From Clostridia bacterium (lineage in GTDB: Bacteria > Bacillota > Clostridia > Christensenellales > Aristaeellaceae): a DNA stretch of 60,015 bases. The stretch spans positions 1 to 60,015 of the forward strand of contig JAFXVJ010000026.1 of NCBI GenBank assembly GCA_017524615.1, read 5' to 3'. Below the pieces are notes generated by a model that worked only from the letters and a program-made list of their open reading frames with translations, was not told the origin of the DNA and made no database searches. Made by a program: the position numbers and the translations under genes. Of the stretch, positions 27,640 to 44,334 are shown piece after piece. The first letter of the stretch is position 1. Each line of letters begins with the position of its first letter.

Positions 27640-27668
27640 AAAAAAGCCCCTGGATTGCTCCAGGGGCC
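27640..27668 (-). terminator. terminator of the large ABC/DUF5696 locus
   Basis: GCCCCTGGA and TCCAGGGGC form a strong stem. The minus-strand RNA ends in a run of six T. It lies 20 bases past the stop of the last gene. Confidence 0.88.
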
Positions 27669-27688: not shown

Positions 27689-29047
27689 TTACTGTCCGTT
27701 GTACTCATCGCACAGGCTGATCCAGGTGGGCATGGACTGCTCAATCTGGGAAGCGGGGGTATCCCAGCCCAGGTTCCACAGCAGGGTGCTGCCAATGATA
27801 TCATTGTTGGTGCCCAGAGCCAGGGTCATGTTGAAGGCGGAATGTTCGGGCTCACGCAGCATGGCGTAGGTCTCGTACACAGCGCGGTCATCGGTGTAGT
27901 TCAGCTTGTTCTGCACCCAGGCGAACTCATCGTCATAGCCAGGGGTGGGGTTGGTCCACATATCATAGATGAAGGCCAGCTTAGCAGCGGTCTCGTCATC
28001 ATAGACGTTGGGCATCAGGGTGATGTTGTCGGAAACAACGTGCTTGTAGGTGTCGCCCTTGGGGCCGATGGGGAACGCAACGCAGCCCCACGGATCAGCC
28101 ATGTCGGCCATTTCGGAGTTGTCGTTGAATCCACCGTAGGTCTGGTACATATAGAAGCCGCAGTAGCCCTGCTTCCAGGCATTCTTGTACCAATCCCAGT
28201 TGGCGCCTTCGCCAGCGGGAGCGGAATAGGTCGCCCAGATTTCTTTGCCCCAGTTCATGCCTTCCATGGCCACGTCGCTGTCCATCACGGGCTTCAGCTT
28301 GCCTTCGTCATCCACAGCGAAGAAGGAGCCGCTGTTGGAGAACACGGACATGATGTAGAAGTCAGTGCCGTCGCCGATCAGGCCGTACACATCGTTGATG
28401 CCGTCGCCATCGGTGTCACGGGTCAGCTTCTGCAGCAGTTCCACGAAAGCATCCCAGGTCCAGGTGCCAGCTTCCTGCATGTCGTAAATTTCTTCATAGT
28501 CGATACCCGCTTCAGAAAGGACCTTCTTGTTGAAGTACAGGCACTGACGGGGTTCAGCTTCGCCGGCAAACAGACCATAGGTCAGGCCCTGCTTGGTGGT
28601 GAACGCCATATCCTGCTTGTTCCACTTTTCGTCGGTCAGATCCACGAAATCGTTCCAGGCTTTGCAGTAGCCAGCCTTAATGGGGGTGGCAACAGAGCCG
28701 GGCTCCAGGATGTAGAGGCGCAGGCTGCCATCGGGAGCAGAAACGAAGTTGGTGAACTCAGTGATCTGAGAGCCCCAGTCGCCGCCCTGCTTGGCAACGA
28801 TATGGCAGTTGTAGGTCTGATCCAGCCAATCGCGATAGGCATACAGCGCAGCCTCTTCCTCGGTAGGATCGTCCTTGCGGGCGTCGCTGCCCACATCGCC
28901 AGACCAGTAGTCCAGGATTTCGATGGTAGCGCCACCAAAGTCGATGCCTTCACGCACTTCCGGATATCCTTCCGGAGCTTCGGCCAGCGCCGCGCAGCTC
29001 ACCATCACGATGGCGATCGCCAGGAACAGGGAAAAGAGTTTCTTCAT
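27689..29047 (-). CDS. extracellular sugar-binding protein, CUT1 type (small)
   Basis: This 452-residue secreted protein has a signal peptide ending near residue 22 (ALA-EAPEGY, a signal peptidase I type site; no clear lipobox). The mature part has the family 1 solute-binding layout, with QGLTYGLFAGEAEPRQCLYFNKKVLSEAGI, TWDAFVELLQKLT and repeated Trp/Tyr residues suited to sugar stacking. A DTDGDGINDVYG segment resembles a calcium-binding loop. It is the last gene of the locus, 106 bases behind the two permeases at 29154-31128, which it most likely serves. Without an obvious lipid anchor it may be held by the transporter or another surface protein. Confidence 0.88.
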   Translation of the reverse strand: MKKLFSLFLAIAIVMVSCAALAEAPEGYPEVREGIDFGGATIEILDYWSGDVGSDARKDDPTEEEAALYAYRDWLDQTYNCHIVAKQGGDWGSQITEFTNFVSAPDGSLRLYILEPGSVATPIKAGYCKAWNDFVDLTDEKWNKQDMAFTTKQGLTYGLFAGEAEPRQCLYFNKKVLSEAGIDYEEIYDMQEAGTWTWDAFVELLQKLTRDTDGDGINDVYGLIGDGTDFYIMSVFSNSGSFFAVDDEGKLKPVMDSDVAMEGMNWGKEIWATYSAPAGEGANWDWYKNAWKQGYCGFYMYQTYGGFNDNSEMADMADPWGCVAFPIGPKGDTYKHVVSDNITLMPNVYDDETAAKLAFIYDMWTNPTPGYDDEFAWVQNKLNYTDDRAVYETYAMLREPEHSAFNMTLALGTNNDIIGSTLLWNLGWDTPASQIEQSMPTWISLCDEYNGQ

Positions 29048-29123
29048 GTTGGGGTTCCTCCTTTTTTATTTTCCACGCATCCATCCGTCCAAGGACCGAG
29101 TGTATGCATAGATTCATTTTTAT

Positions 29124-29137
29124 CCGGCACCTGCCGG
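29124..29137 (-). promoter_or_regulatory. small hairpin between permease and binding-protein genes
   Basis: CCGGC and GCCGG flank a four-base loop, with no T run behind. It may stabilise or mark a processing point so that the binding protein is made in excess. Confidence 0.3.
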
Positions 29138-29153
29138 TTCCGACAATCCTATT

Positions 29154-30158
29154 TTACTCCTTTGAACCCGACATTGCAATACTTTCAACGAAAGTTCTCT
29201 GTGTAAAAATGTAGAGTATGATCAACGGGATGCAGCAAATCAGCACGCCGATGGAAACCAATTGCTGCTGACGCGCCGGCGGAATGATGACCGCCTTTTC
29301 GGCGTCGGCCGAGAAGTAGCGGCCCATGCGGGTGAGGATGGAAGATAGCTCGGTGGAGTAGATGGGCATGCTCTTGAGGAAATTGCGGGTGTAGAACAGG
29401 TCCGTCCACTGCCAGACGAAGGAGAACAGGAAGCAGCTGAGCACCGTGGGCAAAGCGTCCGGCAGCATGATGGTGGTGAAGGTGCGCAGCGTGGAGCAGC
29501 CATCCACATACGCGGCTTCTTCCAGAGACTTGGGGATCCCCTTGAAATACTGCCGAAGCATGTAGATATACAATCCATCCTTCAGGCCCATGCACGTTGC
29601 GCTCATGAGCATGTAGGGGGTGATGTTGCTCAGCAGGTTCAAGGGTTCGCCCCTGAAGGTTTTGATGATCCCCGCAATATCGAAGTAGCGGAAGTTCATA
29701 TACAGCGGGGTGGCGATGGTTTGCGGCGGAATGATGATCATCAGCACCACACAGGCAAACCAGAAGCGCTTGAGCGGGAACTCATACCGGGCGAAGCCGT
29801 AGCCCACCAGGGTGCAGGCGATCACCTGCAGCACGCTCACGATCAGCGATGTCCACGCCGTGTTGATCATAGAACGCGGGAAGGTGGTCAGATCGAACAC
29901 GATCCGATAGTTATCCAGCGTCACATTGCGGGGCAGCAGCACGATGGTTGCATCGTACAGGTCTCTTTCCTCCATCAGGCTGGAGCCAAATCGGGTCAGC
30001 ATGGGCTGGATGATCATAAAGCACAGGCCAAAGATCAGCAGCCCGCGAACGATGGAAATCGTCCACCGCTTGACACCGCTCCTGAACAGATAACCGCCGC
30101 TTTTTTTATTGGCGCTGCGCGCTTTTTCGCGCGAAAGCGATTCTGTCTTAGCTGTCAT
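29154..30158 (-). CDS. CUT1 sugar ABC permease, MalG-type
   Basis: This 334-residue membrane protein has six predicted helices after a basic 40-residue start. The EAA loop that docks on the ATPase reads EEAAYVDGCSTLRTFTTIMLP. The first half has NYRIVF and LIVSVLQVIACTLVGYGFARYEFPLKRFWF, as usual for MalG-type subunits. Its start overlaps the end of the MalF-type gene by 11 bases. No ATPase gene is in the locus. CUT1 systems of Bacillota commonly share one MsmX/MsmK-type ATPase encoded elsewhere, and I assume the same here. Confidence 0.92.
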   Translation of the reverse strand: MTAKTESLSREKARSANKKSGGYLFRSGVKRWTISIVRGLLIFGLCFMIIQPMLTRFGSSLMEERDLYDATIVLLPRNVTLDNYRIVFDLTTFPRSMINTAWTSLIVSVLQVIACTLVGYGFARYEFPLKRFWFACVVLMIIIPPQTIATPLYMNFRYFDIAGIIKTFRGEPLNLLSNITPYMLMSATCMGLKDGLYIYMLRQYFKGIPKSLEEAAYVDGCSTLRTFTTIMLPDALPTVLSCFLFSFVWQWTDLFYTRNFLKSMPIYSTELSSILTRMGRYFSADAEKAVIIPPARQQQLVSIGVLICCIPLIILYIFTQRTFVESIAMSGSKE

Positions 30159-31128
30159 ACTGTTTCACCACCCTGCTTATGACGAGGGACGCAATCCCGA
30201 TGAAAGCAAGCGCCACTCCAAAATAGATCCAGCTTTCCGCCGTGCTTTCGCCGTACCGGGTACGGGTAAACTGCGTGTTGATCCACTCCATCACCTTGTT
30301 GTCGTTCTTCATGAAGAAGTCGATAATGGTGTAGATGGCATTCACCAGCAGCAGCGGGCTGACCATCGGGAAAGTGATCTTCCAGAAAGCTTCCCAAGCG
30401 GTGCACCCTTCCACATCGGCCGCTTCATAGAGTGAGGGTGAAATGGCGGACAATCCGGAAAGGAACACGATGATCTGGATGCCGCTGGCCATGACGATGT
30501 CATAAATCGCATCGATCATATCGAACAAAACGTCAAACACCCCGCTGCCAACCCCGGATATAGACAGCAGATTCTGAAGGGAAGCGGAGATATTCACGCC
30601 GGACTGAGCGGCAATTTCATCGGAAACACCCTGCAGCATGTTGAAGTCCAGCTGCTTTTCCACGCCGGGCAGCACGCCGGAAGCCAGGATCACCGGCAGG
30701 AAGAAGATGGCGCGGGCCATGGTGCGGCCTTTGAACTTCTGATTGAGGATGACCGCGATGACGAACGACAGCACCAGCGTTGCGGTAGCGTTGATCGCCA
30801 TGCGCCCGCTTTCATCCACCAGATACTGGTTGAAATAGGGGTCTACGCCCATGGCGTATTTGTAGTTTTCGAAGTTATTCCATGTCAACTGATACCCTTC
30901 GCCCGGGACCAGCACCACCTTGTTGAGGCTCATGATGACGGATTGAACGAGCGGCGTCACCATGAAGAGGAGGAAGCCCAGAATGAACGGCAGAACGAAG
31001 AGCACACCGGTCCGTGCATTGCGGGAACGCATGGTGTCGTAGTTATCGTTCAGTGGCAGCAGCGCGGTAATCGATTCCATAAAACCCCAGCGTTCGCGCT
31101 TTTCCTTTTTCCTTCTGTGGGTTGACAT
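30148..31128 (-). CDS. CUT1 sugar ABC permease, MalF-type
   Basis: This 326-residue membrane protein has about six helices, with the first at residues 42-62 (TGVLFVLPFILGFLLFMVTP). The EAA loop reads LYEAADVEGCTAWEAFWKITFP. An outer loop of about 80 residues between helices 3 and 4 (GVLPGVEKQLDFNMLQGV onward) is longer than usual. It pairs with the MalG-type subunit downstream. The gene begins one base after the stop of the DUF5696 gene, which argues for tight co-expression. Confidence 0.9.
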   Translation of the reverse strand: MSTHRRKKEKRERWGFMESITALLPLNDNYDTMRSRNARTGVLFVLPFILGFLLFMVTPLVQSVIMSLNKVVLVPGEGYQLTWNNFENYKYAMGVDPYFNQYLVDESGRMAINATATLVLSFVIAVILNQKFKGRTMARAIFFLPVILASGVLPGVEKQLDFNMLQGVSDEIAAQSGVNISASLQNLLSISGVGSGVFDVLFDMIDAIYDIVMASGIQIIVFLSGLSAISPSLYEAADVEGCTAWEAFWKITFPMVSPLLLVNAIYTIIDFFMKNDNKVMEWINTQFTRTRYGESTAESWIYFGVALAFIGIASLVISRVVKQYDS

Positions 31129-31129
31129 G

Positions 31130-34100
31130 TCACATACCCCCTTCCTCAGATACTGCTTCTTCAGGCGCTTCCTCTATGGCCGGTTCAGGCGCCTGATCCA
31201 CCACCTGGCCAGCCGGGATGCTGACCGCCCCAAAGACGACGTCTGCGTCGCTGAAGTTGATGTAGCGGACCGCCTCCAGCCCATCCGGCAGCGGCGCATC
31301 CTGAATCTGTCCCGCGTCCGGCGCCCAGCACATTCCCAGGAGATTGACCTTGTTGATCACCAGCGGCGCGGTGCCGCGGTTCACGTAGCGGCGCGAGCCG
31401 TCGGGCAGGATGATGATCTCCGCCGCGGCGTCCCCCGCAGCCGTTCTGGCCGTACCCTTGGCAGGAACCGTGATGTCGCCCGATACAAAGTCCGTATCGG
31501 TGCCGTTGACCCACAGATCGCCATCCGGGAGGATCAGGAGATCCAGATCAATGGCTTCCGTCACAATCAGATAATTGCCGGCGGCCACATTCCGCTTGTT
31601 GCTGTTATCTGTTTTGACCATGGCGTCGCTGTAATTGGCGTACATGCGGCTGCCATCCGGCAGATCAATGATTTCCACATCGCCCTCGGCCGACTTGAGC
31701 AGGCTGCTCCGCGCGGGGATCTCCGTGCCGCCGGCGGCAATGGCTGTATCCGAAGCGTTGACGTAAACGAGGTTTCCGTCCCCCACTGGCAGAATGTCCA
31801 GCGCCTGGTCATCGCGGACAATCAGCCAGTTCAGGGCGCCGACCGTGCGCGTGCCGGGCTTGACATCGGCCTCCGTGCGGTTGATATACATCCGGCTGCC
31901 GTCCGTCAGGAAAGCCACCTGCACCGCGTCGGGGGCAGCGGACTGGATCCAGCTCCTGGCAGGAATGGCTTCGCCATTGAGTGTTATCTCCGCATCCGTG
32001 CAATTGACCAGCAGAAGCGTGCCGTCGGCCAGGATCATGGCATCCACCGGCTGTTCGTCACGGACGCGCACGTAATTGGCCATGCCCAGCGCTTTCGCCT
32101 GATCGGCGCTGCCGTCATCCTTGTACGTATAGCCGTAATTGACGCTGTTCCCGCTGTAGTTTACATACATGCGGCTGCCATCCGGCAGGAAGATCGCTTC
32201 GGCCTGGGTGTCATCGGTGGCCCAGGCATAGTTCTTGGCCGGCACGGTCATGCCGCCGCTGACAGCGACCGGCGCATCGGACGCGTTCACATACACGCGG
32301 GCATGCCAGCCTTCCTCCAGATCTTTATTCAGGACATCGGCGAACACCACATCAAAGATTTCTCCATCCTTGATTTCGACCGTGCCATACGGCTTGATTA
32401 CGGTGTCCCCCGCCGTCAGGGCGGTACCCGTGAAGTTGACCAGGCTGCGGGCCCCGTTGGCCAGGAATACGGCCTGCACCTTGGCGTCGGCCTCCGGATC
32501 CTCCGTCCGGACAACGATATAGTCGCGGGCGGGCACCGCGGTGCCGTCATCCAGGATGTAATCGTGGATCCCGTAATTGACGTAAACCTTTGTGCCGTCA
32601 GCGTACACCGTCATGGTGACATCCATCGGGAGTATCATGTGGCCGATGATGCGCTGCTGGTTGAGGCCCGCCATTTCTTTCTGGTAACGGCTGATGGTGG
32701 CGATGGCTTCTTCCCGCCATGCGCTGTAATTGGCTCCGTAGTATGCCGTGTGCGTCGTATCCTGCAGGATCTTGGCATCCTCCTGCATGAAGGTGTAGTT
32801 CAGGCCGGAGCCATACTCCACGCAGCGCAGGAATTCGGTCTGACAATCGTTGGAAAGATTCAGGGAGGGGCCCGTGTAGTCCACGGTGCCGTGAAGCGCG
32901 ATCTGGAAGAAGGGCACCTTCTCATCCAGCAGCGAATAGCTGATGCCGCTCAGGTCCATATCGGTGATGATATCGACATAGGGCACGACATAATCGAATC
33001 CTTCCCGGACCATCACATTCTGACCGCTGTCATGGGCTTCCTGGAGCGTTGCCACGTTCATGCCCTTGACCGCTTCGCGGGTGGTGGTATCCCGCGGGTC
33101 ATAGTTGCCGCTGAGCAAATGGCCGATATCCCGGAAAGCCACGCCGTAGGCGCCTTTATCCTTCAGCGCGTTTATCAGGTTGCTGGCGTTTCGCTGCGCG
33201 TAATCCGGACGGGTGAGGTAATACTTATCCAGATCATCATCCATCAAATAGTAGACCTTGGAATACGGCGTCAGCTCAACGATTTCACGGGTGGTGTAGC
33301 GCGCGGCGTTGGATCTGGCCGTGAACCCCTGGAACAGCTTCGTATCATAGGCAAAGGTGGTGATCCCGTCGAAATAGAGATTGACGCCCTTTTCCCGCGC
33401 ATACGAGATCAGGTTCTTCATGCCATTGTCGCCGCCGAGGGATTTTTCCACGCTGACGCCGGTGAGAACATGCTGGGTGATGCCGCCGTTGCACCAGCCG
33501 GTGACCCGCACATTCAGCGCGTCTACGCCGCTGTCTTTCAGGTCGCCGATAATGGCCTTCATCTGTTCGAAGGTGGTGGTAGGCAGCACGCGCTTGACCG
33601 GCATACCTGCCGTGACCACGCGCTTGTCTATGGCGCCAACGAGCTCAACGGACACAGGGACCTGCTCGGACGTATTTTCGCTCTGCATCTGCGGATTCTT
33701 ATCCCGCAGATAATCGCCATAGGCATTGGCCATATCCACGTAATTGTCGCTGTTCAGGAAGCGGTAACGCTGCACCACGCTTTCCTGCGGCAGGGACTTT
33801 TCATACATGATGACCATGTTGGGCGTTTTGGCCGAAACATTGTACTGGTCTGAATGCAGCACATGATACCTGGCGCTGGCGGTATTGTAGCTGTTGGGAT
33901 GGAAAGCGGTGTTGGTGCCGGGCTGGCCGTTGATATCCGCTTTGATGCTTGCATAGGAGGCGCCCTCTTCGATCATGCAGATGAAGGAGCTGCCTTTGCT
34001 CGTCATGCCAAACACCGGGAAGGTGTTCTTGGTCTCGGTGATCGCCTCAGAGCGCTTGGTCGCATAGTCCCAGCCATAGAGGTTGGCGGTGTAGTTGTTC

Positions 34101-35848
34101 TGCTGCAGCTTGCCGTTGTTGTAGCGGATCAGCGCGCCGCCGCCCTCCGGCACGAAGATAAAGCCATCCTCATACGTTCCGTTGGTGGCGCCCACAGCGC
34201 CAAACATGGGCAGGATATTGATGTAGGTGATGGGCGCGTCGGTGTTGTAGGTGATTTCATCGTAAGGGACCTCCACTACCAGGTCGGGGCCGTCCAGACG
34301 GTAAACCACCGTCACGTTGAAACGGATGGAGGAACCGGAGTCGCCGGAAATATCCCATTCCGCGTCCCGGAGATATTCTTCATCGGTATAATTAATACCC
34401 TTGGTATCGCCGCTGCCCTTGAGCGCTTTCAGGATGTTTTCCTTCGCATCGGCCCGCATGAACTTGGCCCTGCGGAACGCGCGATCCAGGATTTCCTTCC
34501 GTTCAGGCACCGTGTCGGCCTGCTCAATCATGCCTTTGACGGCGCTGTTGTCAAAGCCTTCCACGTCCGAAGCGTCCAGCGCGTCAGCCAGTTCGCCGGC
34601 CCACGCGTTATCGGGCTTTGCCAGTTCGGCGTCGGATACGCGGGTCTTCATCAATTCCGCCGCGGTCATTTTGTCGGCGTATTCTTCGGAACTGATCAGC
34701 TGAACGATCGCTTCGATCTGCTCCTCATCGCTGTTGAAAAACTCCTGGTGTTCGCTGACTGCCGCCGCTAAGGATTCCAGATCAACCGGCTCCACATTGG
34801 GACGTTCGACCATATCCTGCAGTTCTGTCATCCATTCGATGGAGGATTCGCCGTTTTCATCATCGCTGCCGGCGTTTTCCAGTTCCTTCACCCGCGCCGC
34901 CAGCAAATTGGCCGCCTGAGCGCGCTCCTCTTCATCTTCTGACAGCGCCCATTGTGCGACGGATTCCATCTCCGCAAGCTCGTCGGCATGCTCGTCGATC
35001 ATCGCCTGCACGGCCTCGCGTTCATAGGGAACAATGGAGGCAGTTTCCAAATCGCTGATGAGCTGCTGAATCCAAGCGTTCTCCTCCAGCTCCAGCGCGT
35101 TCATGGTGATGGAAAGCCGCAGGACGTGGGCAGCCAGCAGGCGCTGCTCAACCCTGGAGGACAGGGCCATATCGCGAATGGACTGCGCGTTTTCATAGTT
35201 GGGCGTAAAGGCCTTGTCCAAACGGCTCGTCTTTTTGTCGTCTGAATTCTTGATCCGGTCGAGGATCTCATTGTACCGCTCGTTTGTCAGCACCTGAGGA
35301 ATGTTCGCGATGCTTTGGATCTGACCGATGGTGTAATGGACCTTGATCTCCGTGGTCTCACCGTCGTCATTCTTGACTTCCTCGATCACATAGGCCTGCT
35401 TGTCGATCGAGTATTCCCAGTTGTTCATGTCCTTATCGGCCGAGGAGGAAGAATAAGACACGACCAAGGTGGAGCGCATATCATTGAGCTTGGAGGCGCC
35501 GATGGCCACCTTGCCCGGGTCCTCCGATACGCCGCCCTTGTCCGCCTCGGGGTTGGACATCCACACCTGACCGGTCTGCTTCACCTTCAGGGAGAACTGG
35601 CTCGTGGTGGGATACATCGTGAATTCCAGGTATTCATTGGACATTTTCTTGTCCTTTGTCTTGGTGTCATAGGAATTCCGATGGATCTTATCATCTTCCA
35701 AGCCTGACTTGCTTTCCGCAGGCCACAGCTTTGTGCCAAGGTAATACAGGCCGCCCAGGATCGCCAGGGTCAGCACGGCTGCAATGACACGCTTGATGAT
35801 GACCGATTTTTTCACGTGCTTTTTGGGTGCGCCGGTTTCCGTTTTCAT
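31130..35848 (-). CDS. giant membrane-anchored DUF5696-type protein with helical insertion and C-terminal repeats
   Basis: This 1572-residue protein has a cytoplasmic start and a single helix (about 18-38), so the rest lies outside. Residues 60-175 and 480-720 are beta-rich and resemble the galactose-mutarotase-like front of DUF5696 proteins. A helical, acidic segment of about 290 residues (190-475) is inserted between them. Residues 735-1060 look like a TIM-barrel domain (VDALNVRVTGWCNGGI, VNLYFDGITTFAYD, YGVAFRDIGHLLSGNYDPRD). Residues 1080-1555 hold about ten repeats of 40-45 residues alternating between LPDGSRMYVNYS-like and LADG-LVN-TD-IPA-like units. DUF5696 is glycosidase-like by fold, but I cannot name the catalytic residues. 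It sits between two sugar transporter gene sets. Confidence 0.8.
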   Translation of the reverse strand: MKTETGAPKKHVKKSVIIKRVIAAVLTLAILGGLYYLGTKLWPAESKSGLEDDKIHRNSYDTKTKDKKMSNEYLEFTMYPTTSQFSLKVKQTGQVWMSNPEADKGGVSEDPGKVAIGASKLNDMRSTLVVSYSSSSADKDMNNWEYSIDKQAYVIEEVKNDDGETTEIKVHYTIGQIQSIANIPQVLTNERYNEILDRIKNSDDKKTSRLDKAFTPNYENAQSIRDMALSSRVEQRLLAAHVLRLSITMNALELEENAWIQQLISDLETASIVPYEREAVQAMIDEHADELAEMESVAQWALSEDEEERAQAANLLAARVKELENAGSDDENGESSIEWMTELQDMVERPNVEPVDLESLAAAVSEHQEFFNSDEEQIEAIVQLISSEEYADKMTAAELMKTRVSDAELAKPDNAWAGELADALDASDVEGFDNSAVKGMIEQADTVPERKEILDRAFRRAKFMRADAKENILKALKGSGDTKGINYTDEEYLRDAEWDISGDSGSSIRFNVTVVYRLDGPDLVVEVPYDEITYNTDAPITYINILPMFGAVGATNGTYEDGFIFVPEGGGALIRYNNGKLQQNNYTANLYGWDYATKRSEAITETKNTFPVFGMTSKGSSFICMIEEGASYASIKADINGQPGTNTAFHPNSYNTASARYHVLHSDQYNVSAKTPNMVIMYEKSLPQESVVQRYRFLNSDNYVDMANAYGDYLRDKNPQMQSENTSEQVPVSVELVGAIDKRVVTAGMPVKRVLPTTTFEQMKAIIGDLKDSGVDALNVRVTGWCNGGITQHVLTGVSVEKSLGGDNGMKNLISYAREKGVNLYFDGITTFAYDTKLFQGFTARSNAARYTTREIVELTPYSKVYYLMDDDLDKYYLTRPDYAQRNASNLINALKDKGAYGVAFRDIGHLLSGNYDPRDTTTREAVKGMNVATLQEAHDSGQNVMVREGFDYVVPYVDIITDMDLSGISYSLLDEKVPFFQIALHGTVDYTGPSLNLSNDCQTEFLRCVEYGSGLNYTFMQEDAKILQDTTHTAYYGANYSAWREEAIATISRYQKEMAGLNQQRIIGHMILPMDVTMTVYADGTKVYVNYGIHDYILDDGTAVPARDYIVVRTEDPEADAKVQAVFLANGARSLVNFTGTALTAGDTVIKPYGTVEIKDGEIFDVVFADVLNKDLEEGWHARVYVNASDAPVAVSGGMTVPAKNYAWATDDTQAEAIFLPDGSRMYVNYSGNSVNYGYTYKDDGSADQAKALGMANYVRVRDEQPVDAMILADGTLLLVNCTDAEITLNGEAIPARSWIQSAAPDAVQVAFLTDGSRMYINRTEADVKPGTRTVGALNWLIVRDDQALDILPVGDGNLVYVNASDTAIAAGGTEIPARSSLLKSAEGDVEIIDLPDGSRMYANYSDAMVKTDNSNKRNVAAGNYLIVTEAIDLDLLILPDGDLWVNGTDTDFVSGDITVPAKGTARTAAGDAAAEIIILPDGSRRYVNRGTAPLVINKVNLLGMCWAPDAGQIQDAPLPDGLEAVRYINFSDADVVFGAVSIPAGQVVDQAPEPAIEEAPEEAVSEEGGM

Positions 35849-35862
35849 TTCACTTCACCCCC

Positions 35863-36546
35863 TCAGCTGAGACGGAACACGATCTCGCGGTACATTGAGG
35901 CAAAATACCCAAACGCATCGCTGAGAAGGCTGAAGAAAACGAGCAGCAGGAAGATGATCACCATTGCGCCAAAGATCGTGGCGACGATGGAGATGAGTGT
36001 CTTGCCCGGTCCATAATCGTGCACCTCCATCAGGCCCACAAAGGCCAGGAACAGGCACCATATCTCCGAAACCGACATCAGCACGGTATAGAACGATCCT
36101 TCATCGAAGGCCAGAATGTTGCTGACCAGGATCAGCGGCAGCTGGATGATGATGTAGGGCACCAAAGCATAGCTCATGGCCATGTAGATGTCCTTGAAGT
36201 GGCCTTTGCCGTCGAACAGGGTGGACAGGCTCCAGTTCGCGATGCAAAGGATCAGGAAGGGCAGCAGCAGCGAGGCCCAGCGCTCATAGATGTTGATGTA
36301 CTGGATGTTCGCGGTGATGAACTGGAAGCTGGTGTACATCAGCTTCAGCACATACGTCAGCAGGAACAGCACCACAAAGGTGTGAGCCGCCGCCAGAGAC
36401 CCCCGCTTTTCATGCACCAGATCCCAGAAACCGTCAAAGGGATGGAAGATCACATACTTGGCGTACAGGAGCGTCTCTTTATAGCGGTTCAGCCGCGGAT
36501 GCTCCTTGCGGGCAACGGCGTCATTTATGGACTTTGCTATGCTCAT
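35863..36546 (-). CDS. YIP1-family membrane protein
   Basis: This 227-residue protein has a cytoplasmic start with the YIP1-like motif YVIFHPFDGFWDLVHEKRGSLA, then five or six hydrophobic helices. Between the third and fourth the segment LSTLFDGKGHFKDIYMAMSYALVPYI is the usual YIP1 signature in bacteria. The function of bacterial YIP1 proteins is not established. The gene begins inside the last codons of the NHL-TPR gene (26-base overlap) with GAGG ahead, and is followed after 14 bases by the DUF5696 gene, so it is probably part of the same membrane assembly. Confidence 0.8.
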   Translation of the reverse strand: MSIAKSINDAVARKEHPRLNRYKETLLYAKYVIFHPFDGFWDLVHEKRGSLAAAHTFVVLFLLTYVLKLMYTSFQFITANIQYINIYERWASLLLPFLILCIANWSLSTLFDGKGHFKDIYMAMSYALVPYIIIQLPLILVSNILAFDEGSFYTVLMSVSEIWCLFLAFVGLMEVHDYGPGKTLISIVATIFGAMVIIFLLLVFFSLLSDAFGYFASMYREIVFRLS

Positions 36547-38182
36547 ACGCTGCCACCTCCCATTTCATTTTTCTGATCGTCTTTCTCACGAAGAAGAATA
36601 CGACCAGCGCCGCGATGATGACGACCACCCACCAGATGTTCTGTTCAACCCACACCTTGCGATAATAGCGGAATGCCCGGCCGTAATTCGTGCGGTCATG
36701 CGCCATTTTGAAAAGGTCCATGGCCTCTTTGTACTGCTCGGTGCGCATCTTGGATCGGCCGATCCCGATAAACGCCAGGTTGTAGTTTGCATTGAGCTGC
36801 AGCACCTTTTCCCAGGTTTGGGCGGAGCCGTCATAATCGCCCAGCAGGTACTGTTCCGACGCCTGATAGATCAGGTTGCCGTATTCTGTAGGCGTAAACA
36901 CCGTCACCGTGCTGTTCAGCTCATCCAGCACGATCAGGTCCTTATCTATATGCTCAATGGAAACCGCGCGGGTGAAGGCGCCTTCCGCCGGAACGCCGCT
37001 GGTGCCGAACGCCCACAGCATGATGCCCTGGGGGTCGTAGCCGAAAACGCGGCCGCGGGTCTGGTCGATCACGACGTACATGTCGTTGTCCAGAACCGTG
37101 ATGTCATAGAGCTTGGACGCCCCGTGATCGGAGGAGCCTTCCACCCATTGCAAATCGCCGATGGGAGGATAGCGGTCGTTCTTGATCAGGATATCGCTGC
37201 CCACTGCGTTCAGGCGGCGGATGGGCTTTGCGTTGTCCCACAGCAGGTCATATTCGCTGAAAGAGATGTTCGTCGCGTAGATGAAGCCTTCTTTGTCGAT
37301 ATAGATGTTCTGATATTCCGTAGGCACGAAGGCCGCTTGCTGGGAGCGCTGCTCCTTGGTCATGAAATAGGATTTCCAGATGTAATCCCACAGATTGTAG
37401 GTAACGGTGTTGGCGCCGATGAAACCGGTAAAGGAGCCGTCCGCCTCGAACTTGGCCAGGCCCTTGTTGATGTTGGAGGCCAGCACGAAAATACGGCCGG
37501 AAGTATCCACCACGAGCTTGTTGGGCAGGAAAGACTGGTTTTGGTCGAAGGTCGAATCCGTCGGCTTGGTGAGCATCTGAAGATAGTTCAGATCTTTGTC
37601 CATCACGATGACGCGGTTGTTGTCCCTGTCGGCCACATAGATCCTTCCGTCCGGATCCACCGAAACATCATTGGGATTGTTGAAGTAGGTAACCCCGTCC
37701 GCCGTCAGCACCATGGGGCCCCGGTCGGCAGAGCTTCCCAGCGGCGGCTTTAAGTAAAAGCTGCCGTTCTCGTCCGTATAGTCGCTTCCGTCTTCATTCT
37801 TCAGCAGATCGCTTTGGGCTTTGAACGCTTCCATTTGGTCCGCGCCGATCGTCACATGGTCGATCTCCCGCACCATTTCGAAATGCGTTCCGATTTTCGT
37901 CAGCTGAAGAATGCGGTTGTTGCCGGTGTCCACAATGTACAGATCCTGATCCCGGACGAACAGGCTTTTGGGGGAGCGCATCGCCTTTTCCAGGCCCAGG
38001 GTGGAACTGTAAATCACGTCAGAGACGCGGTAAGCATCCGGGCTTTCCCGGATATCGCCCCAGTAGTCGTAGTTATAGGTATAGGTGCTGGTAAAGCCAT
38101 CCTCCGCCGCATACGCATCCGCCATGGGCATGAGGATGATCAAAGCGGCCAGCAAAACCAGCAGCCTCACATTGATTTTCAC
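36521..38182 (-). CDS. secreted NHL-repeat/TPR protein with C-terminal membrane anchor
   Basis: This 553-residue protein has a signal peptide (cut near residue 26, AYA-AED). NHL-type beta-propeller blades follow at about 68-95 (LYIVDTGNNRILQL), 168-200 (IYVADRDNNRVIVMD), 220-250, 290-305, 355-385 and 405-430. A TPR pair fills about 436-500 (AFIGIGRSKMRTEQYKEAMDLFKMA). A transmembrane helix at 516-532 and a short basic cytoplasmic tail end it. The start is GTG 38182 behind AGGAGGG; the frame is open further up, into the permease gene. The propeller would face outward and could bind glycan or a partner protein. Confidence 0.82.
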   Translation of the reverse strand: MKINVRLLVLLAALIILMPMADAYAAEDGFTSTYTYNYDYWGDIRESPDAYRVSDVIYSSTLGLEKAMRSPKSLFVRDQDLYIVDTGNNRILQLTKIGTHFEMVREIDHVTIGADQMEAFKAQSDLLKNEDGSDYTDENGSFYLKPPLGSSADRGPMVLTADGVTYFNNPNDVSVDPDGRIYVADRDNNRVIVMDKDLNYLQMLTKPTDSTFDQNQSFLPNKLVVDTSGRIFVLASNINKGLAKFEADGSFTGFIGANTVTYNLWDYIWKSYFMTKEQRSQQAAFVPTEYQNIYIDKEGFIYATNISFSEYDLLWDNAKPIRRLNAVGSDILIKNDRYPPIGDLQWVEGSSDHGASKLYDITVLDNDMYVVIDQTRGRVFGYDPQGIMLWAFGTSGVPAEGAFTRAVSIEHIDKDLIVLDELNSTVTVFTPTEYGNLIYQASEQYLLGDYDGSAQTWEKVLQLNANYNLAFIGIGRSKMRTEQYKEAMDLFKMAHDRTNYGRAFRYYRKVWVEQNIWWVVVIIAALVVFFFVRKTIRKMKWEVAAYEHSKVHK

Positions 38183-38223
38183 GTCTTTTTCCCTCCTGTC
38201 TTCATGTTCGATCGCGTATGGCT

Positions 38224-39966
38224 TTAGTCTTTGAGGCCGGAACTTGCCATGGTTTCCAGGATTCGGCTCTGAGACAGGATGAAAATGAGAATCGGGACGA
38301 TCATCACGATGACCGTAACAGCAGCCGCCTGGCCGGTACGCGCAATACCGCCCGCCTGGATCTGCCCCAGCGCGTAGACCAGGGTCTTTTTGTTTTCCGT
38401 GTAAATGACGGTGGCCGCGTTGGTATTCCACAGGCTCTGCACAGAGAAGATGATGATGGTGAGCCATGCGGGCTTCACGTTGGGCATGATGATGTTCAAG
38501 AAGATACGGAATTCACCGGCGCCATCCAGGTGAGCCGCCTCGATCAGGGCGTTGGGCAGGCTCTCCATGAACTGCTTCATCAGGAACAGCCCGATGGGCG
38601 CGGCAAAGGCAGGCAGGATGATGGCCCAATACGTATCGATCATGTGCAGCCTGCTCATGGTGATATAGTTGGGAATGCCCGTCACATAACCGGAGAACAT
38701 CAGGGCGGTCACGACGATTTTGAAGAAGGTCCGCCCGCCGGGGAAATCATACTTGGCCAGCACGAACGCCGCCATGGAGGCGATGATCACGTGGCCCAAG
38801 GTGCCCACGAAGGTAATCAACACCGTGTTGATCAGGTACCGGGAGAAGGGCACCCAGCTCTGCCCCATGGTAACGATCAAATCGCTGAAGTTGTCCAGCG
38901 TCACATGCGATGGGAACACCCGGGGCGGGAAACGGAACAGTTCATCCAGCGGCTTCAGAGAGGAAGCCACGGAGAACACCAGCGGGAATACCATGGCCAC
39001 CGCGAAGATGAACATGATAATGTAGATGCCCAGGTCGCCCCAGAAGCTGCGGTTGGGCTTGCGCCGTTTGGGACGGGCCAGCTTCACCAGCATAAAGAAC
39101 CCATAGGCGATCAGCAGCACGATCAGCGCAAAATGGACCAGATTCCATGTGGCGATGCTCGTGTCGATCTGATTGCTGGTATCGGCGGCGCGCTCCACGG
39201 TCTCGCCGGCGTCCGCGGCAGACTCCGTTTCCACCGCGGCCGTCCCGTTCGCCGCCGCGGAGCTCTTTTGATCTGCGATGATGCCGAATACGATAAAGCC
39301 CACCAGCAGAACCGCCAGCAACGCACACATCAGGGTGACTTGCTTTTTATCTCTGTTTCCATTCTTGCGGCGCGCCATGATCGTATAGAAGCATACGGCG
39401 CATGCGATGAACAGGAACAGGAAAATGATGCGCACGATTTCAAAGGGCCTGGCAGCCTGGTTCCCCGCGTCCGCTGTTTCGCTGGCCGCCGCGGCAGCGG
39501 GCTCATTGACCGTTGCTTCGGCAGCGGCTTCGCCCGCCCGTTCTTCTGCGGTTTCCTCTGCCTGTTCCTCCGCGGCGGGAGCGGATTCCGTCTCCGCATC
39601 TGCGGGAACCTCTTCCGGCGCGATGTCCCCTTCGGCGTCCGTCTGACTCTCCGGCAGTTCCTCCTGCGGGATGTCAACGGCTTCTTCCGGCGCCGTCACG
39701 GTTTCCGCCGCAACGGTCTGCTGGGCAAGCTGCTGCGCGGCCGCCTGCTCGTTGTGCCGGTTGATTTCGTCGATCTTGGAGGATGTGAAAATCAGCCCTC
39801 CCACGAGGATCGCGATGATAATAGCGGATATGATCAGGAAGCGCTTCACATTGAGCTTCTGCTTTTCTTCCTCGATTTCCCCGCGCAGCATGGCCTGGAA
39901 ACGAAGCTGTTCAACCCGGCTGCTGGTTTTGGGCTGCTCAAATTTTACGATTTGCTTCTTGCTCAT
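38224..39966 (-). CDS. MalG-type sugar ABC permease with a 300-residue N-terminal extension
   Basis: This 580-residue protein has a normal MalG-type permease in its last 270 residues, with EAA loop IEAAHLDGAGEFRIFLNIIMP. The first 300 residues are extra. There is a helix at 43-62, a long Ala/Glu/Pro-rich linker (64-172), two helices at 178-197 and 212-231, a second Ala/Thr/Glu-rich linker (232-270) and another helix at 275-294. Normal relatives are about 280-300 residues. The extension repeats the theme of helix plus flexible acidic linker twice. The gene is coupled to the MalF-type gene upstream by an ATGA overlap. Confidence 0.85.
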   Translation of the reverse strand: MSKKQIVKFEQPKTSSRVEQLRFQAMLRGEIEEEKQKLNVKRFLIISAIIIAILVGGLIFTSSKIDEINRHNEQAAAQQLAQQTVAAETVTAPEEAVDIPQEELPESQTDAEGDIAPEEVPADAETESAPAAEEQAEETAEERAGEAAAEATVNEPAAAAASETADAGNQAARPFEIVRIIFLFLFIACAVCFYTIMARRKNGNRDKKQVTLMCALLAVLLVGFIVFGIIADQKSSAAANGTAAVETESAADAGETVERAADTSNQIDTSIATWNLVHFALIVLLIAYGFFMLVKLARPKRRKPNRSFWGDLGIYIIMFIFAVAMVFPLVFSVASSLKPLDELFRFPPRVFPSHVTLDNFSDLIVTMGQSWVPFSRYLINTVLITFVGTLGHVIIASMAAFVLAKYDFPGGRTFFKIVVTALMFSGYVTGIPNYITMSRLHMIDTYWAIILPAFAAPIGLFLMKQFMESLPNALIEAAHLDGAGEFRIFLNIIMPNVKPAWLTIIIFSVQSLWNTNAATVIYTENKKTLVYALGQIQAGGIARTGQAAAVTVIVMIVPILIFILSQSRILETMASSGLKD

Positions 39967-40901
39967 GTGCCCACCTTCCTCAGCATCGCCTGAATGGCTT
40001 TATTGCACAGAATCATCGACAGGAACAGCACCGTGGCGATGGCTGATGCGTAGCCCATTTCGAAACGGGAGAAGCCGTAGTCGAACAAATGTGTTACGAT
40101 GGTACGCGCGGCGTAGTCCGTGCTGGGGTAGCCGGCCAGGGCGCGGGGCACGTCGCTGACGTTGAACGCGGTGGTGATGCTCATCACCGCGCCGAAGAGC
40201 AGCATGGGTTTCATTTGGGGCAGGGTGATGTGGTACAGTTCCTGCCACCGGTTGCGGATGCCATCCACATATCCGGCTTCATACAGGCTGCGATCCACGC
40301 CCTGCAGGCCGGCTACGAAGGAAAGGAAGCCGGTGCCCATGCTCATCCACAGCGTGACGATGATGATGATCGTCATGATATACCGGGGATCCAGCAGGAA
40401 CAGAATGGGCGCGTCCACCAGGCCGTATTTCAGCAGGATGGCGTTCAGCCAGCCATACGCGTCGCCGCGGAACAGGATGGAGAACACGGTATACGCGCCG
40501 CCGGCAATGGAGGGGGCGTAGAACACCATCAGGGCGACGGTGCGCAGCCAGTGGGGCAATTCGTTGATGAACCAAGCGAACAGGAAGGAAAGGATGTATC
40601 CGATCGGCCCTGTCACCACGGCAATGACGAAGGTGTTCCTCACGGCGATCAGGAACACTTCATCCTGAAGGATCAGATTGATGTAATTCTGGAAACCGAT
40701 AAAACGCGGCGCTTCCAAAATGTTATAGTACGTGAAGCTGTAGAAGATGGACATGGCGATGGGTACGATGATAAATGCGACGAACAGGATGGCATAAGGC
40801 GCCAGAAAGAGATAGCATACCTTCTGCCGTTTGGCCTTTTCCCATCCGTAGTGCATTTTTTCACGGCGAATGTTCCAGTATCTGCTCAGAAACGACTGCA
40901 T
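39963..40901 (-). CDS. MalF-type sugar ABC permease
   Basis: This 312-residue permease has six predicted helices, the first at about 30-52 (YLFLAPYAILFVAFIIVP). The EAA loop is YEAGYVDGIRNRWQELYHITLP. Length and layout are normal, in contrast to its partner with the long extension. It follows the large binding-protein gene by 27 bases and forms the first of the two permease pairs in the locus. Confidence 0.92.
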   Translation of the reverse strand: MQSFLSRYWNIRREKMHYGWEKAKRQKVCYLFLAPYAILFVAFIIVPIAMSIFYSFTYYNILEAPRFIGFQNYINLILQDEVFLIAVRNTFVIAVVTGPIGYILSFLFAWFINELPHWLRTVALMVFYAPSIAGGAYTVFSILFRGDAYGWLNAILLKYGLVDAPILFLLDPRYIMTIIIIVTLWMSMGTGFLSFVAGLQGVDRSLYEAGYVDGIRNRWQELYHITLPQMKPMLLFGAVMSITTAFNVSDVPRALAGYPSTDYAARTIVTHLFDYGFSRFEMGYASAIATVLFLSMILCNKAIQAMLRKVGT

Positions 40902-40928
40902 TCGGTCTCCCTCCTTTCTCTTCTCTCT

Positions 40929-43900
40929 TTATTGTTCTGTTTTGTTTTCGGGGACGGTGCTTTCGCCCACGGACGCTTCAGCGGCCGGCAGTTCCGTAGG
41001 CAGGTTGAATTCTCTGCGCTTCACTTTGATTTCTTCGTTGATGGTTTTGGTGTAGGTGAGCAGCGTCTCACGGGCGTCCACCTTTTCGTTGATGACCTTA
41101 CGGATGGCGTTGCACATATGACGGGTGGTGGAGTAGCCGCCAGCGATTTCGGGGAAGCCCACCGTCCAGCTGCGCTGCGCCTCCAGCACAGCCAATTGAT
41201 CCGTGTTCCAGGCCAATTGCCGCAGGGCGGCCTTATTGGCGGTGGTGTAGCGAGCGGAGGCGCCCAGCACGCTTTCGATCTCGCGGCCGAAGCGCACCTG
41301 CGCATCCGCGCTGACCCACCACTTGATGAACTCCCAGGCGTCCTGTTTGATGTTTTCGTCATCCGTGGCGATCATCATGCAGCACACGCCCTGGGAATGG
41401 ACGGAATGATCCACCACCGGGTCGCCGTTCTCATCCAGGATCGGCATTCCGTCCGCATCGGTCTGCACGGTGCCGGGGAACATGGCAAAGTCCCACAGGC
41501 CGCGGATTTCGGGGGCCGACACCATCAGGGTGTTGTATGTGCTGTAATTGGCCACGCCCATGGGCATTTCGCCGGAACGGAAGCGGCTGACGAAATCGTA
41601 CACCGTGTACAGGCCGTAGTCGTTATACAGGGAGGTGTACAGCTTGAAGGCGGCCACTCCGTTTTCATTGTCGATCATGGTGTGCATGTTGCTTTCATCA
41701 TAGATGGTGCCGCCGTGCTGATAGATCATGGAGTTCAGGATGGACAGATCCAACGTGTTTATATCGGGATAGGGCACGCCCACCGACATGTTGTTGCCCT
41801 GAATGGTGGGCAGCAGGGCAATCAGCTCCTGCCAGGTATCGGGGGGATTTTCAAGGCCCAATTCCTCTATGATGTCCGTGCGGTAGAACAGCACGGAGAA
41901 ATCCTGGGTTTCGGGCAGCGCGTACACGCCGCCGTTGTACCGCATGGCAGTGAGGGCGCTGGGCTCAAAGGCGGACGCCACTTCGTCAAAATCGGGGAAC
42001 TGGGTCAGGTCCTCGACGGCGTGACGCATGGCGTAGTTCACCGGGAACCAGGTGCCCAGGGACAGCACCACATCCGGCCCGTTGCCCGCCACCACGGCGG
42101 TCAGCAGGGTCTCCTGCAAAACCAGCTTCACGTTCACCCGGATCTCATGGCCGTTCTGCCGCGTCATGGGGGTGAACGTATCGTCGATCATGGTTTTCAG
42201 TACGGTGCTCTGGTCACGGCCGGTGACGATCCACACCTCGATCAGGCTCGCGTCATCGTCGTTATCGTCGTACACATCGCCCAAGGCGTTATAATCCACA
42301 TAATATGAAGCGATGGCGGAGCGGATCTCATGGCCCGTCTGCGCCAGCGCGTCCTGTTTCAGGATGGGCAGCGCGGCGTTTTCCCCGCCGATGATGATCA
42401 TATCCACATCCAGCTTGGTTTCGGACATGTTCTGCATGGCGGTGCCCAGGCTGGTGATGTTATCCTTGAAATTGCCGAAAGACTGGGTGATGCGCTCGGT
42501 ATGATCCACAAAGCCTTCCAGCTGGACGGCCAGGGTCTGGGCCACGGCAACGCGGTCGCTCTTCTGGCCGGTGATGGCCACGGTGTCATCCACGATCTTG
42601 TACAGCCGCTTACTTTCCAGATCCATGGCCTGGATCACTTCGGGATACACCTTTTCCAGGTTATAGTCGCGGAAGCGGTCGGGATTCGGGCCGGTGAGCA
42701 CCAGAATCTTGCGGTAAATCTGGTTCAGGCGGTAAATGCTGTCTTCCACCTGCTGCAGCACCGGGCCCATTTCGCCCAGGGTCGCCTCCAGGCGGATGGT
42801 GTGCTTGCCGGCAGACAGATAAAACTGATAGGGCTTGCCGTTTTCATCGGCCAGGGTGCACAGATCCCAGGCCGTGTTGTAGCCGAAGGAAATGCTGCTC
42901 ATGGCGTCGAAGGGGATCTCCCCATCGATATACAGGGTGCGGCAGGAAAGGGCGCCGCGCTGATAGGCCTGGCGGGCCTTGATGGTGATCTGATACCAGC
43001 CGTCCTCGGGCACATCAAATTCCCACTCGATCCACTGTCCCGCGTAGTTCCAGGGATCGCCGCCGATGTAGTTGAGCAGGGTCGTATCCACGCTGCAGGG
43101 ATCCGTGGCGGGGGAAGAACGGTCATACCGGGCATAAAGAGAGGGGGCGGAGCGCAGGGTGGAGCTTTCGCCCTGCACGATCTGCTGCCAATCCTTGGCC
43201 GCTTCCGTCATGCTCGTCTGCGGCTGAGACGCATGATACTCCTCATAAGTGGCAACAGGTTTCACAGGCTGGAGCGAAATGGACCGCAGCACCATGGGTT
43301 CGTTGGTGGCCAAAAGCGATACAGTGTTTTCCTGCGCATCAAAATAGAATTGATACGGCTCTACCACATAGCCCATATCATCTTTGCAATAAGCGGTCTG
43401 CCATCCGTATTCCTCCACCTGGGTGGGACGGATCTCGTTGCCCTGGTTGTCCTTGCGCACTTCACTGCCGTTCTTCCACAAACGGGAAAACGACAGCGAC
43501 CGGGCGCCGGCGAAGGGCAGCTCGCCATTGATGTGCAGCTCTCTTTCGATATCCACGCCGCGGGAATCCTTGGTCTTGGCCAGGTATTCCACCATGATGT
43601 TGTACATGCCGGCTTTTTCTACGTTCACCTTCCACGTCACGCAGGAGCCGTCCGCGGTGTACACGCAGGGCGCGCCGTTTTCATCCTGGGTGACTTCCCC
43701 ATCGCCCTCAAAGGCAGTGATGTCCACCGCGATGGCCTCATCCCCCAGGGGCGCGTCCTTGTGGGCAAGCATATAACGGTCATACGTATCGCTCCGATCC
43801 AGCCCGGACACTTCGGCCGTCAGGTCTTCCTTGGCATACTTGTCATGAAAGTCCTGACTGTCGCCGTTGAGCAACACGATGACCGCAATGATGGCCGCCA

Positions 43901-43943
43901 CACACAGAATACTGATCAGTGCCTTCAACCACTTTTTTTGCAT
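40929..43943 (-). CDS. 1004-residue anchored solute-binding protein with two jelly-roll-like modules
   Basis: One uncleaved-looking helix (5-27) anchors the protein; no lipobox is seen. Two related beta modules follow at about 65-230 and 280-395. Each contains the W-x-V/F pattern of CBM35/CBM6-like jelly rolls (SCVTWKVNVEKAGMYNIMVEY and IEWEFDVPEDGWYQITIKA) and a LHINGELPF / LYIDGEIPF strand. A helical spacer (395-545) leads to a family 1 solute-binding domain (about 565-975, GGVYALPETQDFSVLFYRTD). Ordinary family members are about 450 residues. It is the first gene behind the promoter, and its permeases lie just downstream. Carbohydrate binding by the modules is an inference. Confidence 0.83.
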   Translation of the reverse strand: MQKKWLKALISILCVAAIIAVIVLLNGDSQDFHDKYAKEDLTAEVSGLDRSDTYDRYMLAHKDAPLGDEAIAVDITAFEGDGEVTQDENGAPCVYTADGSCVTWKVNVEKAGMYNIMVEYLAKTKDSRGVDIERELHINGELPFAGARSLSFSRLWKNGSEVRKDNQGNEIRPTQVEEYGWQTAYCKDDMGYVVEPYQFYFDAQENTVSLLATNEPMVLRSISLQPVKPVATYEEYHASQPQTSMTEAAKDWQQIVQGESSTLRSAPSLYARYDRSSPATDPCSVDTTLLNYIGGDPWNYAGQWIEWEFDVPEDGWYQITIKARQAYQRGALSCRTLYIDGEIPFDAMSSISFGYNTAWDLCTLADENGKPYQFYLSAGKHTIRLEATLGEMGPVLQQVEDSIYRLNQIYRKILVLTGPNPDRFRDYNLEKVYPEVIQAMDLESKRLYKIVDDTVAITGQKSDRVAVAQTLAVQLEGFVDHTERITQSFGNFKDNITSLGTAMQNMSETKLDVDMIIIGGENAALPILKQDALAQTGHEIRSAIASYYVDYNALGDVYDDNDDDASLIEVWIVTGRDQSTVLKTMIDDTFTPMTRQNGHEIRVNVKLVLQETLLTAVVAGNGPDVVLSLGTWFPVNYAMRHAVEDLTQFPDFDEVASAFEPSALTAMRYNGGVYALPETQDFSVLFYRTDIIEELGLENPPDTWQELIALLPTIQGNNMSVGVPYPDINTLDLSILNSMIYQHGGTIYDESNMHTMIDNENGVAAFKLYTSLYNDYGLYTVYDFVSRFRSGEMPMGVANYSTYNTLMVSAPEIRGLWDFAMFPGTVQTDADGMPILDENGDPVVDHSVHSQGVCCMMIATDDENIKQDAWEFIKWWVSADAQVRFGREIESVLGASARYTTANKAALRQLAWNTDQLAVLEAQRSWTVGFPEIAGGYSTTRHMCNAIRKVINEKVDARETLLTYTKTINEEIKVKRREFNLPTELPAAEASVGESTVPENKTEQ

Positions 43944-44055
43944 AGATCCGCCTCTCCTGTCATTGCATGATTACACAGGGTCGCCAGTACCTGATGGATA
44001 CAAATGTGCTTCTTTTGCACGCAAAAAAGATCAATCTGATCTTTATTTACACCAC

Positions 44056-44084
44056 ATTATACAACCGGCATTTTTTTGTGTCAA
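44056..44084 (-). promoter_or_regulatory. promoter of the large ABC/DUF5696 locus
   Basis: On the minus strand TTGACA (44079-44084) and TATAAT (44056-44061) are spaced by exactly 17 bases, both consensus. The start codon of the first gene is about 105 bases further on. No other strong promoter was found inside the 16-kb unit. Confidence 0.85.
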
Positions 44085-44272
44085 CCTTCACAAAACGTCC
44101 TTAATACTTTTTTAAGATTTGTTTATTATGGAATAATAATGGGAAGGATATATATCACAGATGCAATAAAATCAGGGATGAATGTCAGGAAAGCGGTTCT
44201 TCACGAAAATCAAGCTGCGCCGGAGAAATAAAACGAACGCGCAGGATGAAAACCGCTTGTTTTCGACAATCC

Positions 44273-44306: not shown

Positions 44307-44334
44307 TATCATCATGCGTCGGAGGTTATGGGCA

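Follow-up and report, generated by a model that had tools for sequence, protein, structure and literature searches.

A nine-gene transport unit of a Clostridia bacterium with the gene order of the transport half of the Caldicellulosiruptor xylan degradation locus

Gene content of the unit

In a 60,015-nucleotide stretch of DNA from a Clostridia bacterium of the family Aristaeellaceae (GenBank assembly GCA_017524615.1, contig JAFXVJ010000026.1; here, the window), we found nine genes on the minus strand, at positions 27689-44084, bounded by a promoter and an intrinsic terminator. Their products are two substrate-binding proteins (SBPs), four permeases, and three membrane-associated proteins of the NHL-TPR, YIP1, and DUF5696 families, and they are arranged like the transport genes that the thermophilic fiber degrader Caldicellulosiruptor bescii carries in its xylan degradation locus (XDL). 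The features are as follows, in the order of transcription (TM, transmembrane segment; GH, glycoside hydrolase; family matches are to Pfam).

44056-44084, minus strand: promoter of the sigma-70 type (TTGACA-17-TATAAT), 12/12 consensus matches
40929-43943, minus strand: SBP1004, membrane-anchored SBP of 1004 residues, counterpart of xloE (SBP_bac_8, 6.3e-23)
39963-40901, minus strand: perm312, CUT1 permease, counterpart of xloF (BPD_transp_1, 5.8e-10; conserved order)
38224-39966, minus strand: perm580, CUT1 permease, counterpart of xloG (BPD_transp_1 at residues 398-570)
36521-38182, minus strand: NHL-TPR protein with a signal peptide, an NHL propeller, TPR, and a C-terminal TM (residues 514-532)
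35863-36546, minus strand: YIP1 family membrane protein (Yip1, 6e-16; five TMs by simple hydropathy)
31130-35848, minus strand: DUF5696 protein of 1572 residues, the “GH129” of the printed operon (DUF5696, 4.1e-183; N-terminal TM, residues 16-34)
30148-31128, minus strand: perm326, CUT1 permease, counterpart of axoF (BPD_transp_1, 6.6e-9)
29154-30158, minus strand: perm334, CUT1 permease, counterpart of axoG (BPD_transp_1, 6.1e-14)
27689-29047, minus strand: SBP452, family 1 SBP in the axoE slot (SBP_bac_1, 1.5e-9)
27645-27668, minus strand: intrinsic terminator, a 10-pair stem (7 G-C) followed by TTTTT

All nine reading frames were confirmed, and all nine genes are under purifying selection (ratio of nonsynonymous to synonymous substitution rates [dN/dS] of 0.08-0.33 in comparison with the related loci L003 or L004). 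The intergenic gaps, in transcription order, are 27, -4, 41, -26, 14, 1, -11, and 106 bases. The promoter is the sole 12/12 site within the 18.5 kb scanned. The likeliest NHL-TPR start is not 38467 but 38182, a GTG codon that has an AGGAGGG site. Separate expression of part of the SBP452 transcripts may occur, because the 106-base gap before this gene holds two small, weak hairpins (z = -1.67) and a 9/12 promoter-like site lies at the start of the gap (29179-29151). A preliminary description of the window, made from the letters and their open reading frames, had claimed nine same-direction genes running from a consensus promoter to a terminator, with two permease pairs, binding proteins at opposite ends, and no ATPase; these claims hold, as do the families that it named.

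Each of the two transport systems combines one SBP of family 1 with a pair of BPD_transp_1 permeases, as expected of CUT1 importers. No ATPase gene was found within the nine-gene unit by Pfam; the genome encodes seven OB_MalK ATPases, all on other contigs. In this respect the unit resembles CUT1 importers with a shared MsmK/MsmX ATPase, which likewise comprise permease pairs and family 1 SBPs with no ATPase of their own, but it differs from them in having two permease pairs in one unit. It also differs from ordinary CUT1 importers in its constant NHL-TPR, YIP1, and DUF5696 partners and in the TM anchor and extra N-terminal modules of its 1004-residue SBP. In this protein, jelly-roll-like parts are predicted in the N-terminal half, and the family 1 SBP domain is C terminal (residues ~595-884); a CBM_35 (CBM35) match falls below the Pfam cutoff (26.5 versus 28 bits). 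By simple hydropathy it has one TM (residues 8-26), and it is without a lipobox; the nearest solved SBP is Lin1841 (2.6e-17). SBP452 carries a lipobox-like MVSC, and its sole solved relative at E ≤ 0.01 is an arabino-oligosaccharide-binding protein (6rjy, 2.1e-6). The N-terminal extension of perm580 is lineage specific: the frames of its relatives are mostly 285-440 residues long, and those of L004-L006 have 575-594. NHL-TPR matches NHL at 1.1e-12 and TPR under the Pfam cutoff, and solved NHL and TPR structures are among its relatives.

Conservation of the gene set

We collected 65 loci, each around a DUF5696 match (numbered with the prefix L); since L057 equals L004 and L103 equals L006, 63 are distinct. 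Twenty-five, including the additional cluster copy that the window's genome carries, came from the genome scan and the window's own family; the remaining 40 came from phylum-wide genomes (35) and the family (5). The loci were picked among strong DUF5696 matches, partly for diversity, and some genomes contribute several. With clean profile models, NHL-TPR and YIP1 were found in 65/65 loci, as separate genes in 42 and fused in 23 (two of the latter, L092 and L099, are cut by a contig end). The other members are nearly as constant: perm326 is present in 64/65, perm334 in 62/65, perm580 in 57/65, and SBP1004 and perm312 in 56/65 each, where the permease tallies stand for permeases rather than exact types because the permease models cross-hit. 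The SBP452 slot, filled by an SBP452-like or generic SBP in 44/65 loci, is the least conserved position of the unit. The loci with absent members either reach a contig end (L003, L005, L089, L092, L099, and L102) or belong to genomes with an SBP1004 on another contig (L072-L074, L078, L095, and L097).

The same association is seen across the phylum sample, in which we scanned 397 other genomes. Strong DUF5696 matches (best E value of 6e-125 or better) occur in 39 genomes, NHL-TPR in 40, and the N-terminal half of SBP1004 in 41. A single set of 39 genomes, spanning 18 sampled families, contains all three, and 42 genomes contain at least one. Eleven genomes with DUF5696 best E values of 2e-6 to 7e-4, two of which (G483 and G505) are above the Pfam cutoff, and seven with partial SBP1004 matches (G206, G250, G288, G318, G345, G534, and G553) were set aside. 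The hypergeometric probability of this co-occurrence, which treats genomes as independent although they are not, is ~1e-52. The preliminary description had looked to recurrence of these proteins together in other genomes as its check, and this is what we observe. For the three families DUF5696, SBP1004, and NHL-TPR, correlations between the distance matrices are 0.96-0.97. Within genomes carrying several copies, we compared families by the copy that each places closer to a third locus, counting cases where the difference passes 0.05. DUF5696 agrees with SBP1004 in 4/4, with NHL-TPR in 7/7, with YIP1 in 8/10, with perm312 in 12/12, and with perm326 in 9/9 such comparisons.

The presence of two SBPs and two full permease pairs in one place would also be expected if two independent sugar ATP-binding cassette (ABC) importers adjoined each other and some unrelated membrane genes by chance, without forming a joint machine. 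The variability of the SBP452 slot and its possible own promoter are consistent with such an arrangement, as are the loci in which the two halves are reversed (L080, L084, L085, and L092), arranged otherwise (L081), or apart, the SBP1004 module not adjoining DUF5696 in five cases (L072-L074, L095, and L097). Moreover, perm312 and perm326 agree in just 9/28 within-genome comparisons, which may reflect cross-assignment or a looser tie between the halves. However, the three unusual parts share the same 39 genomes, NHL-TPR and YIP1 fuse, DUF5696 follows the permeases of both halves within genomes, and the halves stay together even when reversed. We regard independent importers as improbable.

Within the window's family, DUF5696 was found in 113/200 sampled genomes at E ≤ 0.001, 14 of them with weak matches (best E values of 3e-52 to 3e-8). 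The window's genome (G000) holds a second, strongly diverged cluster copy (L038; contig C49, ~24.7-36.1 kb) without a close SBP452. Its DUF5696 has 871 residues, with IGD at the position of FRD in the window protein, and one of the OB_MalK ATPase genes lies ~6 kb from this cluster copy. Only two YIP1 genes were found in this genome, one per cluster copy.

Relationship to the xylan degradation locus

The XDL of C. bescii is printed as xloEFG-X-GH129-axoFGE-xynF-xynE-xynD-xyn10A-xynX-xynB (PMC8579813). It encodes two CUT1 transporters, it is upregulated on xylan (~10-100 fold for the proximal genes) and on cellulose, and growth on xylan is impaired in the absence of msmK, the gene for the shared ATPase, after its deletion (PMC8579813). 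The XDL transporters of Caldicellulosiruptor saccharolyticus respond to xylan-richer biomass (PMC5658599), and xylan induction is reported for Caldicellulosiruptor systems in both articles (PMC8579813 and PMC5658599). The operator of XynR is printed upstream of Athe_0174, with a Kd of 161 nM (PMC12285236).

An exact copy of the printed XynR operator occurs once among 126 loci; it precedes the SBP1004 counterpart of L094 by 150 bases. The gene order of L094 is SBP, permease, permease, NHL-TPR-YIP1 fusion, DUF5696 (2.9e-183), permease, permease, SBP, and GH43, which equals the printed xloEFG-X-GH129-axoFGE-xynF. From the operator, the gene order, and the GH43 gene, we infer that L094 is the C. 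bescii XDL. The match in operator and order therefore indicates that “X” is NHL-TPR-YIP1 and that “GH129” is DUF5696. The window unit has the XDL-type order (SBP-permease-permease-NHL/YIP1-DUF5696-permease-permease-SBP), and it shares with the XDL the kinds of proteins, their order and strand, and the lack of an ATPase of its own. It differs from the XDL in that NHL-TPR and YIP1 are separate, perm580 is extended, the DUF5696 protein is enlarged by an insertion and a repeat tail, and xylanase genes are not attached. No xylanase gene or other glycosidase family was found in 42 window frames scanned, which are a subset of all frames and probably include some shadow frames. Because of this, the unit, as judged from its sequence and the printed operon, corresponds to the XDL's transport half and is not itself an XDL. 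Apart from DUF5696, itself a GH129 relative, no Pfam-called glycosidase lies within the nine genes. The claim of the preliminary description that no ordinary glycosidase is present is thus true at the locus but needs qualification with respect to DUF5696 and to the loci of relatives.

A GH10 xylanase gene stands beside or inside the cluster in 11/65 loci; in six (L007, L040, L044, L045, L052, and L056) it immediately follows SBP452 and shares its strand, and in one (L092) it lies between the halves. Four of the 11 loci were used to build the GH10 model, and Pfam confirmed them; misses say little because the flanks are mostly a few kilobases long. The 100 genes that flank the cluster in relatives, almost all encoded on its strand, include GH3, GH32, GH42, GH2, GH26, GH10, GH5, and GH28, alpha-galactosidase, GDSL esterases, and LacI regulators (Pfam); these are among the 25 commonest of 131 families, counted with no control gene set and such that one gene may count twice. 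At the level of genomes, GH10 exceeds the cutoff in 30/39 system-bearing and 14/358 other genomes (odds ratio, 82). Three GH10 genes occur in the genome of the window, all on other contigs.

Alternatively, the system might serve to recycle or sense envelope glycans of the cell itself rather than to handle food polysaccharides. The housekeeping neighbors PlsY and EngA in the window and the scanned frames without a glycosidase would fit such a service. To our knowledge, YIP1, NHL-TPR, and DUF5696 have no established role in sugar uptake, which counts in its favor as well. The xylan induction of the XDL counterpart (PMC8579813) and the plant-polysaccharide enzymes and LacI regulators in the flanks of relatives point the other way, and we give the envelope explanation very little probability.

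DUF5696 and its kinship with GH129

The DUF5696 protein is related to the GH129 enzyme NagBb and the GH129-like DagB. A 19-member DUF5696 profile matched the GH129-like structures 5opq (1.6e-10) and 5wzn (1.1e-7) in the PDB, and hhalign of DUF5696 against eight GH129 relatives from the window's family gave 99.0% (E = 2.2e-18, 478 columns). Two deeper DUF5696 clades align at 99.7 and 99.2%, and the clade of L094 aligns at 96.6% over 270 columns that stop short of the catalytic part. By this homology, a collinear beta-sandwich, TIM barrel, and C-terminal domain are predicted to be shared with NagBb (5wzn) and DagB (5opq), together with the TR motif and, in the window protein, the active-site Asp; the TIM barrel and jelly rolls that the preliminary description saw in the outer domains of the unit likewise rest on homology. 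Unlike these enzymes, the window protein is membrane anchored and encoded in a transport operon, its acid/base residue is not clearly conserved, and the catalytic pair is gone from much of the DUF5696 family. GH129 relatives distinct from DUF5696 were found in 7/60 genomes of the window's family (L107-L114).

An active DUF5696, that is, a retaining, GH129-type glycosidase that is anchored in the membrane and trims the glycan between capture and import, would be suggested by this kinship and by the printed “GH129” label (PMC8579813). The GH129 Asp (D in 8/8 GH129 rows), which corresponds to the catalytic Asp435 of NagBb (PMC5698469), aligns with D907 of the window protein; E949 lies near the acid/base position in the window's clade; and the TR-motif Arg of GH129 aligns with an Arg retained in 59/63 DUF5696 sequences. 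Because DagB is active with just one of the two NagBb residues retained (PMC5698469), a missing canonical pair is no proof of inactivity. Across the loci, however, the Asp column holds D in 45/65 and the Glu column holds E in only 17/65, 16 of which belong to the window's clade of the tree, the other being L082. Furthermore, the Glu that is invariant in GH129 (8/8 rows) falls on the position preceding E949, where the DUF5696 reference protein has a basic residue, although column placement is uncertain by about one residue in the deepest DUF5696 clades. In a quick tree rooted with GH129, the deepest DUF5696 branches lack both catalytic residues and the D/E pair is limited to a nested clade, apart from one D/D row, L038, of uncertain place; this tree is weak, having a long outgroup branch.

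Because the catalytic residues are not retained across the family, DUF5696 is more likely a glycan receptor with a GH129 fold than an enzyme and is putatively catalytic at most. An active glycosidase is thus unlikely, and our alignments question the “GH129” label of the XDL gene in the literature. The glycan processing proposed in the preliminary description finds no support in the family-wide pattern of these residues.

The window protein is considerably larger than usual DUF5696 open frames, which mostly have ~710-1010 residues, and the difference lies in two parts:

34379-35248, minus strand: acidic insertion, DUF5696 residues 201-490, absent in the usual compact form by alignment
31133-32503, minus strand: repeat tail of ~11 units of ~41 residues, the units resembling the last motif of the DUF5696 core

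The insertion contains 66 D/E versus 29 K/R. The dN/dS values relative to L003 are 0.14 for the insertion and 0.22 for the tail and are rough, dS being ~1. Loose counts of the tail motif past residue 800 are 11, 6, 10, 20, and 1 in L003-L007, respectively. The largest DUF5696 in the fetched loci has 2538 residues and ~20 tail-like motifs (L006, 9995-17611, and L103).

Expression signals and neighboring genes

Besides the promoter, the upstream region contains a palindrome that may act in regulation:

44027-44043, no strand assigned: candidate operator, AAGATCA-ATC-TGATCTT, between the -10 element and the first gene

Nothing else in the window matches it, even if 2 mismatches are tolerated (chance mean, 0.17), and no exact copy exists in 125 other loci, relatives included; the sole exact hit, L106, is this locus itself. 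The genes for PlsY and EngA flank the unit on one side, and on the other is a helix-turn-helix gene of the HTH_3 type (44182-44706, plus strand), divergent from the unit promoter, which possibly encodes a local regulator. Past the terminator, at 27240-27600, intergenic stretches resemble facing copies of a dispersed element (GTCATCCCGAGCGGAG... and TCGGGATGACA...). Elsewhere in the window are two adjacent ABC exporters (737-5125, plus strand), the first with a peptidase C39 domain, which look like a bacteriocin or peptide export pair; an extracytoplasmic function (ECF)-type sigma factor beside a 701-residue protein with a weak PepSY domain, possibly a sigma/anti-sigma pair (47568-50223, minus strand); and an oligopeptide-type ABC system including a 906-residue SBP_bac_5 binding protein (50764-59365, minus strand).

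Proposed function

Taken together, the nine genes probably encode one surface-and-membrane system by which a rumen/gut-type member of the Clostridia takes up plant-glycan oligosaccharides. Xylan-derived oligosaccharides are the most likely substrates because the matching XDL operon is xylan induced. The single glycan-import machine of the preliminary description is in keeping with the conserved set and with a published xylan-induced operon of the same order (PMC8579813), except for the processing step; the large glycan and the two-step import of that description are conjectural. SBP1004, anchored and with its jelly-roll modules, would together with the second SBP pass oligosaccharides to the two CUT1 permease pairs, which would draw their energy from an MsmK-type ATPase that is shared and encoded elsewhere. 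NHL-TPR and YIP1 would form a hub in the membrane, keeping the permeases together with the anchored DUF5696, and DUF5696, a predicted GH129 fold with degraded catalytic positions, would serve as the glycan receptor. In the window's lineage, this receptor would have gained the acidic insertion and the repeat tail, and our guess is that these let it reach across the cell wall.

Several points weigh against this interpretation, in addition to the five loci with a separate SBP1004 module and the low agreement between the permeases of the two halves. We infer, rather than observe, contact among the proteins of the unit, and the structure model of the compact L007 DUF5696 (5-row alignment) is too poor to use (mean predicted local distance difference test score [pLDDT], 35.7; predicted template modeling score [pTM], 0.29). 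The link to induction on xylan passes through L094, assigned to the XDL by operator, gene order, and GH43. The co-occurrence with GH10 is confounded by plant-degrading lifestyle and relatedness, nine system-bearing genomes are without GH10, and no adjoining GH10 was found in the window or in L003-L006. Other loci are flanked by GH26, GH28, GH32, GH5, GH2, or GH42; because of this variety, substrates appear to differ, and xylan is not certain here.

The unit is already in print as the XDL transport half in Caldicellulosiruptor, with two parts left as “X” and “GH129” (PMC8579813). We found no paper on DUF5696 by name in an open-access library, nor one on the gene set in its listings. New relative to the literature surveyed, as far as its available portions extend, are the phylum-wide fixed set, the NHL-TPR-YIP1 fusion, the doubt on DUF5696 catalysis, and the enlarged form. 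A bolder and more tentative proposal, which we hold as somewhat short of an even chance, is that the set represents a general glycan-capture machine of Bacillota functionally analogous to SusCD of Bacteroidota, present in about 1/10 of the sampled species of the phylum. A propeller-TPR-YIP1 hub would couple a wall-spanning pseudo-glycosidase receptor, two ABC importers, and a tethered SBP, with specificity coming from neighboring enzymes. That such a machine has escaped notice would be explained by the separate annotation of its parts, which are labeled hypothetical, YIP1, DUF5696, or GH129.

Our findings tie three poorly understood families (DUF5696, bacterial YIP1, and NHL-TPR) to a probable job in polysaccharide uptake, and the link to C. 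bescii, an organism with reported genetics, makes the idea directly testable. For the rumen/gut clade of the window, they name a probable apparatus for the uptake of plant-fiber fragments.

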